Under the pieces are notes generated by a model that was not told the origin of the DNA, did no database searches, and saw only the letters and a list, made by a program, of their open reading frames with translations. Source: a virus. Taken from it: a stretch of 24,556 nt of DNA. The stretch is taken from the IMG/VR virus record IMGVR_UViG_3300027121_000019, positions 1-24,556 of that record; one strand, given 5' to 3'. Below are positions 16,378 through 23,259 of the stretch, one piece after another. Position 1 is the first letter of the stretch. Every line of letters starts with the position of its first letter. The position numbers and the translations under genes are program-made.

Positions 16378-16406
16378 ATTCTACACAAAAAAAGGGGAGA
16401 AGTCAA
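16378..16406 (-). promoter_or_regulatory. Early promoter of the 51-aa ORF/thyX operon, embedded in a terminator
   Basis: TTGACT (16406-16401), 17 nt, TAGAAT (16383-16378) on the minus strand. The -35 lies in the loop and stem of the upstream gene's terminator and the T-run forms part of the spacer. Predicted start near 16371, about 15 nt before the ATG. Confidence 0.7.
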
Positions 16407-16416
16407 TTCTCCCCTT
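16387..16416 (-). terminator. Intrinsic terminator after the 99-aa ORF
   Basis: A 10-bp stem AAGGGGAGAA (16392-16401) with TTCTCCCCTT (16407-16416) and a 5-nt loop. On the minus strand the T-run (16393-16387) includes the stem end. It lies 2 nt after the stop at 16419. Confidence 0.9.
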
Positions 16417-18723: not shown

Positions 18724-18829
18724 TTAATTGCTTTTCTACATTATAAGGCACCTGGGGTGATCTGTAAAGACCAGGCCAGGTGTCTCTAATAACTTCTGCG
18801 AGTTTATATGGAGTTTCTGAAGTTATCAT
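18689..18829 (-). CDS. 46-residue hypothetical protein coupled to gnd
   Basis: ATG 18829 overlaps the gnd TGA by 4 nt (ATGA); stop TAA at 18689-18691. It reads MITSETPYKLAEVIRDTWPG, then LYRSPQVPYNVEKQLNDERI. It fills the gap between gnd and the next ORF and overlaps that ORF by 35 nt in another frame. The composition looks like a genuine protein. Function unknown. Confidence 0.55.
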   Translation of the reverse strand: MITSETPYKLAEVIRDTWPGLYRSPQVPYNVEKQLNDERILDRNRK

Positions 18830-19848
18830 CGAACGTGATGACCCCCAAACATAAACCTCATTCCGTTCAAGATTTTTGCTCCGAAGGATCCGAGATTGCG
18901 TGAGTTAAATCTTTCAAATAAGGCAGTAGTAATAACAGGAGCGGGAACCCCCAGATCCACAGCGGCAGAAACAGTCCAACGACCCTCACCGCTGTCGGAT
19001 ACTCCTCCAGAGAACTGTTTAAGGCTACCATCCCTGCGTAGCACATCAGCAGTAAGGTCAAGTAACCAAGACCCAACCACACTACCACGACGCCATAACT
19101 CAGCAACCTCAGCAACGTCAATATCATAACAATAGGATTCTGGGTCTGCCATAGGGGCAACTTCCGCATCGCCTTCTCTAACATACTGAGCACCTGCATT
19201 TGCATTCTTAATAATGTTAAATCCTTCTGCGTATGCCTGCATAATACCATACTCAATACCATTATGCACCATCTTCACAAAATGCCCAGCACCAGGACCA
19301 CCACAATGCAACCATCCATATTCAGCAGAAGTTATGTCTGAGTCAAACTGAGTCCTGGGGGCAGCTCCAATTCCTGGGGAGAGTGCATTAAAAATGCGCG
19401 AACAAGTGGCGACTGCAGTATCTCCACCTCCAACCATAAGACAGTATCCACGATCCAGACCGTAAACACCACCACTAGTGCCGCAATCAATATACTGGAT
19501 GCCCTGCTTTGCAAGTCGTTCTGCTCTCTTCCGACTGTCTTTAAAATTGCTATTGCCATGATCAATAATAATATCTCCTTCACCACAATATCGTAGTAAC
19601 TCATTAATCGTCTCCTCTACTGTTTCTGCAGGTACAACCATCTGAAAAATACCTGGTTGACCATTCTTTTTAACTACTTTGACAAGATTTTCAATAGTAG
19701 TCACAACTCCATTCACATATCCTTTTTCATATGCTTCATTTGCTTTCTCATAATTTCTTCTATAACCCCAAACTTCAATTCCTGCCTTCATCATACGACG
19801 AGACATACCTTCACCCATTCGTCCTAATCCAATCAATCCTACTTTCAT
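18826..19848 (-). CDS. gnd: 6-phosphogluconate dehydrogenase, short form
   Basis: 340 residues; oxidatively decarboxylates 6-phosphogluconate to ribulose-5-phosphate and makes NAD(P)H. Rossmann motif GLIGLGRMGEGM at residues 5-15, followed after strand 2 by YRRN (R30, R31). Substrate motifs are CGTSGGVYGLDRGYCLMVGG and GGPGAGHFVKMVHNGIEYGI with the catalytic Lys/Asn. The length matches the short (about 300-340) class, not the 470-residue class. The RR after strand 2, where many short enzymes have an acidic residue, suggests NADP preference (inference). An AGGAG site precedes the ATG, 9 nt after zwf. It pairs with zwf to form the oxidative pentose-phosphate branch. Confidence 0.95.
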   Translation of the reverse strand: MKVGLIGLGRMGEGMSRRMMKAGIEVWGYRRNYEKANEAYEKGYVNGVVTTIENLVKVVKKNGQPGIFQMVVPAETVEETINELLRYCGEGDIIIDHGNSNFKDSRKRAERLAKQGIQYIDCGTSGGVYGLDRGYCLMVGGGDTAVATCSRIFNALSPGIGAAPRTQFDSDITSAEYGWLHCGGPGAGHFVKMVHNGIEYGIMQAYAEGFNIIKNANAGAQYVREGDAEVAPMADPESYCYDIDVAEVAELWRRGSVVGSWLLDLTADVLRRDGSLKQFSGGVSDSGEGRWTVSAAVDLGVPAPVITTALFERFNSRNLGSFGAKILNGMRFMFGGHHVR

Positions 19849-19857
19849 TTTTTACTC

Positions 19858-21189
19858 CTATTTTAATTTGAGGGGATAGTCCCACTTAGTAATCAGTTCT
19901 GTTTTTTGCCAAGGACCCCAAACACCTTCATTATAAAGATATGGCATTGTCATAATACGACATTGATCTCCAGTGCATAAAAGATCATCAACAATTCTCC
20001 AAGATTCTAACACTTCATCTGCGTGAACAAAGTGTGATTGGTCTTCATTGATTGCATCATAAAAAAGTTTTACATAACCATCAATTGCTTTTTCTACTGG
20101 ATAATGATACTGAAGAATTGCCGTTTCTACCTTGTCATTTAGACCAGGAGATTTAATATCAATACTCATATCCAAATGTGGATCTGGTTGCAATCTCATT
20201 ACAATTCTATCATTACAATCGTGTCCATCAAATAACTGTTGTGGTGGAGACTTAAATTTAATCACAACCTCAACACAATTTACAGGCATCTTCTTACCCG
20301 TCATAAAATGGAATGGAACTCCTTTCCATCTCCAATTATCAACATACAACTCACCAGCAACAAAGGTTGGAGTTTGAGAACCTGGAGTTACTCCTTCCTC
20401 ATTTTTATAATCATCATATTGTCCAAGAACTACATTATCACCCAGTCTTGTCGCTGCGAGAACCTTAACCTTCTCTCTGCGAATTTCTTTAGCATCATTT
20501 TTACAAGGAGGTTCCATTGCAATTAATGCAAGCACCTGAAGCATATGGTTTTGAAGCATATCTCTCACGGCACCAGCAGTATCATAATACTGAGCACGAC
20601 CTTCACAACCAATTGTTTCAGTTGCAAAGATTTGAACTTCTTCTACAAAGTTCCTGTTCCAAAGTGGTTCAAGTAAAATATTGCTAAAACGGGTGGCAAG
20701 GATATTATTAACAGTATCTTTGCCCAGATAATGGTCAATGCGATATACTTGTTTCTCGCGTAAATATCCAGCCACCACAGATTGTAAATGATTAGCAGAT
20801 TGAAGATCGGTGCCAAAAGGTTTTTCAATAATGACTCTGGATTTTTCTGCGTCATCTAACTTACCTGCTTCTTTTAGGTTTGTAATAGCATCAGCATATC
20901 TTTCTGGTGGAACTGATAGAAAATAAGTAGTGTCTTCATAAGAATCTATCAGTTTTAAAGATTCTAAATCACTCAGGTCACAAGAAACATAATCAAGTCT
21001 TTTAATAAACTCTTGAGAATAATGTCCTAAAATTTCAACCCAACTCTCCTTACTATGTTTGGTTCTGGAAGCACCAATAATTTTAAATCCTTTTGGTAAA
21101 AGATTTTTCTTATGAAGAGAATAAAGTGCTGGTATAAGTTTCCTTTTGCAAAGGTCTCCAGTTGCTCCAAATATAACTATTGATTTCAT
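19858..21189 (-). CDS. zwf: Glucose-6-phosphate 1-dehydrogenase
   Basis: 443 residues. NADP-binding FGATGDLCKRKLIPALYSL near residues 7-25, EKPFGTDLQSA at 122-132, catalytic RIDHYLGK at 150-157 and the FHFMTGKKMP loop. It oxidises glucose-6-phosphate to 6-phosphogluconolactone, generating NADPH, which phages can spend on deoxynucleotide synthesis. It is somewhat shorter than typical bacterial enzymes (about 490-510). The ATG overlaps the talC stop (ATGA), so talC-zwf-gnd is a single coupled operon from the talC promoter. Confidence 0.96.
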   Translation of the reverse strand: MKSIVIFGATGDLCKRKLIPALYSLHKKNLLPKGFKIIGASRTKHSKESWVEILGHYSQEFIKRLDYVSCDLSDLESLKLIDSYEDTTYFLSVPPERYADAITNLKEAGKLDDAEKSRVIIEKPFGTDLQSANHLQSVVAGYLREKQVYRIDHYLGKDTVNNILATRFSNILLEPLWNRNFVEEVQIFATETIGCEGRAQYYDTAGAVRDMLQNHMLQVLALIAMEPPCKNDAKEIRREKVKVLAATRLGDNVVLGQYDDYKNEEGVTPGSQTPTFVAGELYVDNWRWKGVPFHFMTGKKMPVNCVEVVIKFKSPPQQLFDGHDCNDRIVMRLQPDPHLDMSIDIKSPGLNDKVETAILQYHYPVEKAIDGYVKLFYDAINEDQSHFVHADEVLESWRIVDDLLCTGDQCRIMTMPYLYNEGVWGPWQKTELITKWDYPLKLK

Positions 21190-21848
21190 TCTTTTTGATT
21201 ATCAATAACGGTTTCCCAATCCTTCTGAAAGAGTTCTAGACCCTTATCAGTCATAATGTTCTTATACATTGCCCAGAATACAACTGGAGGAATTGTAACT
21301 ACATCAGCACCAGAAAGAGCAGATTGTTCTACCTGTCTTACATCACGAAGAGATGCTGCAAGAATTTGTGTGCTGGTTCCTGAGTAATCAAATGCCTTAC
21401 GAATGTTCTTGATAAGTTCAATTCCATCAATTGAATTATCCATCCAACGACCAACGAAAGGTGAGATGAATGTTGCTCCTGCCTTTGATGCAAGAATTGC
21501 TTGTGCTACTGAGAACACCAAGGTTACATTGACTTGAATTCCTTTATCAGAAAGAAACTTGCAAACCTTAAGTCCTTCTACGGTACAAGGAACTTTAATT
21601 GTAACTGCTGGTGCAATTGTATAAAATTTTTGTGCTTGTGAAAGCATTTCTTCGGCAGTATCTGCAACTACCTCAGCAGAAATACTTTCCAGTTTTGAAA
21701 AAGACTTTGTTATTTCTTCAATAACTTCTTGGAGTTGTCTACCACTTTTAAGAATCAAAGTGGGATTTGTAGTGACTCCATCCAATAGTCCAGTCTCATA
21801 TGCTGGACTAATCATTGAAACATCGGCTGTATCTAAAAAGATCTTCAT
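21186..21848 (-). CDS. talC: Transaldolase-like protein TalC
   Basis: 220 residues from MKIFLDTADVSMI, the standard TalC start; an in-frame ATG at 21866 would add MSSYFF. The TIM-barrel Schiff-base lysine is K85 in AVTIKVPCT. Other motifs are GVTTNPTLILKSG, GIQVNVTLVFSVAQA, FISPFVGRWMD and GADVVTIPP. This short (about 220 aa) type is the usual cyanophage transaldolase, linking glycolytic and pentose-phosphate sugars. The ATG directly follows a T-run after an inverted repeat that contains the promoter, and there is no clear Shine-Dalgarno, so initiation is unusual. It is the first gene of the talC-zwf-gnd operon. Confidence 0.95.
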   Translation of the reverse strand: MKIFLDTADVSMISPAYETGLLDGVTTNPTLILKSGRQLQEVIEEITKSFSKLESISAEVVADTAEEMLSQAQKFYTIAPAVTIKVPCTVEGLKVCKFLSDKGIQVNVTLVFSVAQAILASKAGATFISPFVGRWMDNSIDGIELIKNIRKAFDYSGTSTQILAASLRDVRQVEQSALSGADVVTIPPVVFWAMYKNIMTDKGLELFQKDWETVIDNQKE

Positions 21849-21853
21849 AAAAA

Positions 21854-21890
21854 AGTAAGAACTCATCTCTAATTATAATGAGTTCTTACT
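21854..21890 (-). repeat. 13-bp perfect inverted repeat centred on the talC -10 box
   Basis: Arms AGTAAGAACTCAT (21854-21866) and ATGAGTTCTTACT (21878-21890), perfect over 13 bp with an 11-nt loop that contains TATAAT. On the minus strand it is followed by a T-run (21854-21849), so RNA reading through from psbD would form an intrinsic terminator, while RNA from the talC promoter would lack the first arm. Confidence 0.9.
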
Positions 21891-21900
21891 AAGATGTCAG
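21872..21900 (-). promoter_or_regulatory. Early sigma70-like promoter of talC operon
   Basis: CTGACA (21900-21895), 17 nt, TATAAT (21877-21872) on the minus strand; one mismatch overall to consensus. Predicted start is near 21866-21864, at or next to the upstream in-frame ATG. Confidence 0.8.
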
Positions 21901-21926: not shown

Positions 21927-21949
21927 AAAAAAGACCCCGAAGGGTCTTT
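21927..21949 (-). terminator. Intrinsic terminator of psbD
   Basis: AAAGACCC, TTCG tetraloop, GGGTCTTT then T on the minus strand (stem 21930-21937 with 21942-21949). It starts 4 nt after the psbD stop. A stable UUCG-loop terminator. Confidence 0.93.
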
Positions 21950-21953
21950 AAAA

Positions 21954-23015
21954 TCAAAGAGCGTTACCTCTGGGCAAGACTTCCTCAGGGAACACAAAGT
22001 TCTCGTGAGGTTGATCTGCAGGTGCCATCCAAGCACGGAGTCCTTCATTTAAAAGCACGTTCTTTGTATAGAACGTCTCGAATTCAGGATCTTCAGCAGC
22101 ACGAATCTCCTGACTTACGAAATCATAAGCACGAAGATTGAGAGCCAGACCAATAATACCAATAGAAGAAGTCCAAAGACCCATAACGGGAACGAAAAGC
22201 ATGAAGAAATGAAGCCAACGCTTATTACTAAAAGCGATACCAAAAATCTGTGACCAGAATCTGTTCGCAGTAACCATTGAGTAAGTCTCTTCCTCTTGCG
22301 TAGGTTCAAATGCTTTGAATGTATTTGCTTGCTCACTATCTTCAAATAGAGTGTTTTCTACGGTTGCTCCGTGAATTGCACAAAGTAGTGCTCCTCCCAG
22401 TATACCAGCAACTCCCATCATATGGAAGGGGTTGAGAGTCCAGTTATGGAAACCTTGTAGGAACAGCAGGAATCGGAAGATTGCAGCAACACCAAATGAA
22501 GGAGCAAAGAACCAACTGGATTGTCCCAGTGGATACATTAAGAATACAGAAACGAATACTGCGATAGGACCAGAGAATGCAATTGCATTATAAGGTCTGA
22601 TGCCTACAAGACGAGCAATCTCAAACTGACGAAGCATAAATCCAATCAAACTAAAGGCACCGTGGAGAGCAACAAAGGTCCAAAGCCCTCCAAGTTGGAA
22701 CCACCTGACGATATCCCCTTGAGCCTCAGGACCCCAGAGCAGAAGAAGAGAATGACCCATAGCGTCTGCTGGAGTACTAACTGCCGCAGTAAGAAAGTTT
22801 GTACCCTCAAGATAGGAACTTGCCAACCCGTGAGTATACCAACTCGTAACGAAAGTTGTCCCAGTAAGCCAACCACCAAGAGCAAGGTAAGCAGTGGGAA
22901 AAAGAAGAAGTCCAGACCAACCAACAAAAACGAAACGGTCTCTCTTAAGCCAGTCATCAAGTACATCAAACCATCCCCATTGTGAAATTGGTCGTGAAAG
23001 TGTTGAAGAAGTCAT
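21954..23015 (-). CDS. psbD: Photosystem II reaction-centre protein D2
   Basis: 353 residues, full length, five membrane helices. Near-identical to cyanobacterial D2 in landmarks: [73 protein letters not shown] then [31 protein letters not shown], and the C-terminus [16 protein letters not shown]. With D1 it binds the reaction-centre pigments and QA, so the phage can keep PSII working during infection. Strong AGGAGG just before the ATG, its own early promoter at 23042-23070, and a UUCG terminator downstream, so it can be a single-gene transcript. Confidence 0.98.
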
Positions 23016-23083: not shown

Positions 23084-23203
23084 TCATTCATAAATCATCC
23101 CAACAGTCAGTAAGACAAAGCAAAGTATTGTGAATATCATAAGTCCTATGCCTGCCCAGATTATCCAGTTAGGCATAGGTTCGTTTTGGGTATTATGAGA
23201 CAT
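23084..23203 (-). CDS. 39-residue single-pass membrane peptide between psbA and psbD
   Basis: ATG 23203, TGA 23084-23086. It reads MSHNTQNEPMPNWIIWAGIG, then LMIFTILCFVLLTVGMIYE: a short polar N-terminus and one membrane helix (about residues 13-36). Size and form resemble low-molecular-weight photosystem or cytochrome subunits, but the sequence does not match PsbT, PsbM, PsbJ, PetG or the Hli motif as I know them. The ATG follows the T-run of the psbA terminator with no spacer and no Shine-Dalgarno; an early promoter at 23232-23259 would start RNA inside that hairpin. Moderately likely to be real. Confidence 0.5.
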   Translation of the reverse strand: MSHNTQNEPMPNWIIWAGIGLMIFTILCFVLLTVGMIYE

Positions 23204-23229
23204 AAAAAAAGAGGGTTATTATACCCTCT
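23204..23229 (-). terminator. Intrinsic terminator of psbA
   Basis: AGAGGGT, 6-nt loop, ACCCTCT, then T-run on the minus strand (arms 23223-23229 and 23210-23216; T-run 23210-23204). It starts 26 nt after the psbA stop. Confidence 0.85.
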
Positions 23230-23231
23230 AT

Positions 23232-23259
23232 ATTATATCAGTTATTCAGTTTTTATCAA
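23232..23259 (-). promoter_or_regulatory. Early-type promoter overlapping the psbA stop
   Basis: TTGATA (23259-23254), 16 nt, TATAAT (23237-23232) with TG-A before it (extended -10), minus strand. Predicted start near 23226 falls within the first arm of the psbA terminator, so initiated RNAs lack a complete hairpin and could express the 39-aa ORF and psbD. Confidence 0.65.

Follow-up and report, generated by a model that had tools for sequence, protein, structure and literature searches.

Genes and features at the talC locus

We analyzed a 24,556-nt stretch of DNA from a virus of photosynthetic bacteria (IMG/VR record IMGVR_UViG_3300027121_000019), hereafter the window. On its minus strand psbA, a 39-aa ORF, psbD, talC, zwf and gnd follow one another in this order (Table 1), the last three genes probably forming one operon. 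An intron probably splits psbA, as in the psbA gene of S-PM2. Ahead of the psbA exon, an ORF at 24556-24164 (minus strand), truncated by the end of the contig, looks by eye like a homing endonuclease of the intron-encoded type. psbD is followed by its own canonical terminator, located 39 nt upstream of the 5′ arm of the talC element described below.

Table 1 Positions of the talC element, of neighboring genes and of two further nested units in the window
Feature	Position	Strand	Remarks
Third nested unit	16378..16416	-	Terminator 16416-16392; -35 TTGACT from its loop (16406-16401); -10 TAGAAT 16383-16378 past the T-run; small ORF ATG 16356
zwf (19858-21189) and gnd (18826-19848)	18826..21189	-	Pfam
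talC, transaldolase (PF00923)	21186..21848	-	Conserved start MKIFLDTA
T-run abutting the talC ATG	21849..21854	-	Six T, ATG 21848 immediately after
3′ arm ATGAGTTCTTACT	21854..21866	-	Also predicted 5′ UTR
Predicted transcription start	21865..21866	-	Rule-based (-10 plus 7)
-10 TATAAT (21877-21872) and following TA	21870..21877	-	In the hairpin loop (21877-21867)
5′ arm AGTAAGAACTCAT	21878..21890	-	In the promoter spacer; pairing partly kept in relatives
-35 hexamer CTGACA	21895..21900	-	
Conserved upstream box TCTTTAATTCATAACAA / TTCAATTCATAACAA	21904..21920	-	About 40-55 nt upstream of the predicted talC start
Canonical terminator of psbD	21930..21949	-	AAAGACCC TTCG GGGTCTTT and T-run, -11.4 kcal/mol
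psbD	21954..23015	-	
Second nested unit, after psbA	23203..23259	-	-35 TTGATA 23259-23254, extended -10 TATAAT 23237-23232; hairpin 23229-23210, T-run, ATG 23203 of the 39-aa ORF

Upstream of talC lies a perfect inverted repeat, the two arms of which are complementary at 13/13 positions and separated by 11 nt. No other perfect inverted repeat in the window reaches 13 bp (loop of 3 to 20 nt), and any such repeat was present in 1 of 40 dinucleotide shuffles of the window. A sigma70-type promoter with 11 of 12 matches (5/6 to the consensus in the -35 hexamer) and a 17-nt spacer shares its bases with the repeat. The 5′ arm lies entirely within the spacer, the -10 box within the hairpin loop, and the predicted +1 falls where the 3′ arm begins. 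The original prediction from the sequence, of a 13-bp palindrome and T-run around the TATAAT of a near-consensus promoter, with one arm as the spacer and the other beginning at the predicted start site, agrees with these positions on the minus strand. When both arms were present, RNA folding yielded -17.2 kcal/mol (z -3.9), compared with -0.9 kcal/mol for RNA begun at 21866, in line with the further claim that the promoter's own RNA escapes the hairpin for want of the 5′ arm.

Among the features of an intrinsic terminator, the element has a stable stem and six T but not a G+C-rich stem base. The stem is A/T-rich, with 4 G-C among its 13 pairs, and its base is A-U rich. Nearly all talC elements carry the upstream box, as do two elements not associated with talC; it is possibly an activator site. 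An Rfam search of the window gave one match (E 0.57), far below the gathering score and outside the talC element. The NtcA site GTA-N8-TAC was discarded by eye, as the spacing does not fit the consensus in PMC3037559.

From the sequence, ATG 21848 is taken as the talC start codon. The TalC relatives in IMG/VR share the N-terminus MKIFLDTA, which begins at the ATG right after the T-run, a position that had been proposed as an alternative start. A leaderless start at ATG 21866 had also been considered. This proposal is unsupported because an ATG is found inside the 3′ arm at that position in 18/28 distinct elements and in frame in 16/28, so that 12/28 lack it or have it in another frame, and because MKIFLDTA starts from 21848.

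Conservation of the talC element

Elements were gathered by means of TATAATTA and the talC start, with the arms left free; the invariance of TATAATTA in relatives is thus by construction. The pattern CATAACA-N-TATAATTA alone was rejected as a finder, since it returned mostly chance matches. Besides the window, 28 distinct sequences have the element ahead of talC, with differing genes upstream: the box, TATAATTA, the arms and the T-run are retained at IMG/VR talC loci behind psbD and behind other genes. The predicted placement of the promoter ahead of the carbon genes holds, as it is conserved before talC, followed by zwf and gnd. No talC element was found in isolated phages by blastn.

Over the 29 distinct sequences, 84.4% of the stem cells are paired, compared with 80.2% in column shuffles (0/500 as high) and 45-56% in slid registers of the alignment. 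The covariation score of the stem is 0.177 versus 0.124 in shuffles (0/500 reach it), a modest signal because column shuffles already pair at 80% and the sequences are related. One inner stem pair is CG in 20 sequences, UG in 8 and UA in 1. The expected conservation of both arms with compensatory changes is seen in part: pairing and covariation exceed all shuffles, but about one third of the elements have a weak hairpin. Mean folding energies of the 28 elements are -10.6 kcal/mol for the full RNA and -1.0 kcal/mol for the promoter's own RNA. Hairpin stability ranges from -2.0 to -20.4 kcal/mol and is weaker than -7 kcal/mol in 9/28, indicating that the hairpin is not strictly required. A by-eye comparison of hairpins behind a psbD terminator with the others revealed no clear difference in strength. 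As the letters of the 3′ arm are conserved even where pairing is lost, this arm may have another role besides pairing.

The last 8 nt before the talC ATG contain 74% T (28 distinct elements), versus 26-35% before the first ATGs of long ORFs, a crude comparison because the first ATG of a long ORF is not always the true start. A good T-run is absent in two of the 28 elements.

Nested units at photosystem and other gene junctions

The same kind of unit was found elsewhere in the window. In the second nested unit (Table 1), the stop codon TGA of psbA lies within the -35 TTGATA. TATAATA is found there in the hairpin loop region, an arrangement shared by the relatives G001, G003 and G010.

Among distinct psbD ends at IMG/VR loci L083-L162, a hairpin and T-run are present in 58/72. 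In 26 of these psbD ends the stop codon TGA is directly followed by a -10 box (TATACT, TATAAT and the like), so that the TG of an extended -10 comes from the psbD stop. The predicted start lies no more than 3 nt from the loop start in 24 of the 26 cases, and folding gives -13.4 kcal/mol for the full RNA and -2.4 kcal/mol for the own RNA. The arms comprise 15 differing sequences, all types pairing. At 17 psbD ends NATAAATA, a box of the late type, adjoins the 5′ arm or extends into it. TGA stops occur with the extended -10 and TAA stops with NATAAATA, both abutting the terminator hairpin. The stop-codon version is also present in isolates, at psbA (136627) and psbD (138888) of S-PM2 and at psbD (168323) of Syn9, where gp219, located after psbD, starts right behind the T-run of the nested unit. 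Similarly, the annotated g293 of the freshwater isolate S-CRM01 begins right after the T-run of an independent case, in which TTGACA and TAGAAT are 17 nt apart, TAGAAT lies in the loop of GACTCCTC/GAGGAGTC, and six T follow.

Copies of the talC type occur once per genome scanned. At L248 and L508, the box and hairpin precede another gene, an unrelated small ORF; the box, TATAATTA and T6 are combined there with other arms, of the GAACCCT/AGGGTTC and AACCCT/AGGGTT type. Distant talC genes (L071-L073, L081 and L082) have unrelated sequence in which TATACT directly precedes a GC-rich hairpin, a T-run and the ATG.

Promoter-terminator overlap across genomes

We scanned the window, four IMG/VR relatives, S-CRM01, Syn9, RB49 and T4 for terminators (stem plus T-run) and for sigma70-like promoters (at least 10/12) overlapping them, using as a null model sequences with shuffled flanks and loops but intact stems. 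Overlaps were found at 3/8 terminators in the window (shuffled mean, 0.07). The relatives yielded 5/27 (0.22) for G001, 6/26 (0.43) for G002, 8/45 (0.85) for G003 and 4/23 (0.24) for G010, and the isolates 1/26 (0.11) for S-CRM01, 1/18 (0.06) for Syn9, 3/37 (0.54) for RB49 and 1/27 (0.82) for T4.

Positions were analyzed in 11 cyanophage sequences, with S-PM2, P-HM2, ACG-2014d and S-SSM7 (the last up to 220 kb) added. Promoter parts cluster at fixed terminator positions: the -35 in the loop, the -10 in the loop, or the -10 or late box next to the 5′ arm. In 15 cases versus about 2 expected, a -10 box ended 1-6 nt upstream of the 5′ arm; the other counts were TTGAC at the loop start 14 versus about 1.5, and ATG 6-11 nt past the stem 58 versus about 26; the late ATAAATA came immediately after the T-run in 13 cases. 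Many of these counts stem from homologous psbA/psbD junctions, which inflate them; they are thus not independent, and Poisson values are indicative only. Fusions of T4-type late boxes (ATAAATA) to terminator T-runs are common, e.g., at L298 (G002 121464) and at S-PM2 136627.

A model for the talC junction and its alternatives

The talC element is probably, in our estimation, a compact promoter-in-terminator junction that blocks incoming RNA and lets its own RNA escape. Its anatomy, conservation, partial covariation, recurrence and positional enrichment are evident at the sequence level. A host-type (sigma70-like) RNA polymerase would start the talC-zwf-gnd RNA at approximately 21866/21865. RNA coming from psbD or another upstream gene would contain both arms and fold into the hairpin, and the T-run that follows would cause partial termination; in upstream RNA that passes the T-run, pairing of the 3′ arm would extend to the start of talC. 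Transcripts from the talC promoter would lack the 5′ arm, and their U-rich leader would be short and unstructured. In other registers, this logic would also operate at psbA, psbD and further T4-like cyanophage junctions.

The original prediction held that the element cleanly insulates psbD. This is weakened by the psbD terminator just upstream and by the relatives with weak hairpins, whereas the nesting itself is supported more widely than was then known, since nested promoter-terminator units recur in the window and in cyanophages. With rather less confidence than for talC alone, we suggest that self-escaping terminators could be a general junction part of T4-like cyanophages, in which about 40-55 bp end the upstream RNA and start the next one, with the start at the hairpin loop so that only incoming RNA folds; the photosystem stop codon would even provide the TG of the extended -10. 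A terminating polymerase might also start anew at the same place.

The main rival to termination is translational locking alone, of the T4 gene e or I-TevI type: read-through RNA would continue unterminated and its hairpin would hide the talC start region, and translation would be confined to RNA begun at the nested promoter. The geometry is that of T4 e, soc and I-TevI (PMC2988022, PMC3014915), the hairpin ends 5 nt from the talC AUG, the stem is A/T-rich, and the separate psbD terminator makes a second terminator look redundant. We nevertheless consider such a lock unlikely, as a Shine-Dalgarno sequence is found in the arm (-16..-5) in 0/28 elements, the T-run is mostly kept although this role does not need it, and the GC-rich hairpins and long T-runs of the other registers resemble true terminators.

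The palindrome had also been proposed to be a DNA operator, i.e., the site of a dimeric regulator over the -10. The long perfect symmetry centered on the -10 would suit it, and the strong conservation of the upstream box suggests that an activator or repressor binds this DNA. However, a fixed operator is disfavored because relatives differ in the letters of the arms but largely retain the pairing, with T-G pairs at the inner position described above, and because the same box has other arms at another gene (L248, L508). G-U cells outnumber A-C cells 16 to 6 in the inner 10 pairs, though the tie over all pairs (19 versus 19) makes this a weak test of RNA versus DNA. Altogether, an operator appears very improbable. 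Equally doubtful is that selection acts on the promoter, upstream box and 5′ UTR only, the hairpin being a chance or fading by-product or a protector of upstream RNA 3′ ends: TATAATTA and the 3′ arm do persist in the 9/28 elements with weak hairpins, but chance rarely yields a perfect 13-bp repeat, covariation is above all shuffles, and nesting recurs with unrelated sequences.

If promoter-in-terminator junctions operate as proposed, they explain how photosynthesis and sugar genes of host origin are kept insulated in cyanophages at the cost of very little DNA. The rule that the start site lies at the loop would find promoters and terminators that separate prediction would miss or misread. Cultured phages, among them S-PM2 and Syn9, would allow a direct test, and the element would offer a compact one-way insulator for engineering.

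Comparison with known systems

Promoter early stem-loop (PeSL) cassettes occur before different genes and may mediate gene shuffling through their many similar copies. Those of T4-type phages are reportedly the subject of work by Arbiol et al. in 2010 and Comeau et al. in 2014. Passages of PMC4503421 and PMC5931544 cite them as composite promoter-terminator motifs of T4-like phages. Like a PeSL, the talC element combines a sigma70-like promoter and a stem-loop terminator in one small co-directional unit. Both types are small units with a host-type promoter, found in T4-like phages ahead of different genes. In RB49, however, the arrangement is tandem, with the promoter after the terminator (12/37, 1.66 expected; TTGAC 24-29 nt past the loop start), whereas the talC promoter and hairpin share bases. 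An ordinary terminator beside a promoter likewise has a stem and T-run, but in the talC element the loop contains the -10 and the T-run leads straight into the start codon.

In those parts of Sullivan et al. (PMC3037559) that deal with them, promoters and terminators are predicted separately, and no mention of nesting was found there. Our search, which ran without the original PeSL and Syn9 transcriptome papers and is thus weak evidence of novelty, found no paper describing nested promoter-terminators in cyanophages.

In T4 e, soc and I-TevI, a hairpin with a late promoter inside it blocks translation of long transcripts (PMC2988022, PMC3014915). As in T4 e, soc, 49 and I-TevI, the talC promoter lies in the hairpin region and its own RNA, by the predicted start, lacks the 5′ arm, so that only read-through RNA folds. 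The promoters of T4 e and I-TevI are of the late TATAAATA type and that of talC is of the sigma70 type (TATAATTA), although at psbD of relatives this role is also taken by late boxes. Unlike the T4 hairpins, the talC element has a T-run after the stem, and its expected effect includes termination; moreover, no Shine-Dalgarno sequence or AUG is paired in the stem, which ends 5 nt before AUG 21848. The nested arrangement is therefore, as far as the literature was searched, new as a variation on the theme of PeSL cassettes and T4 hairpins.
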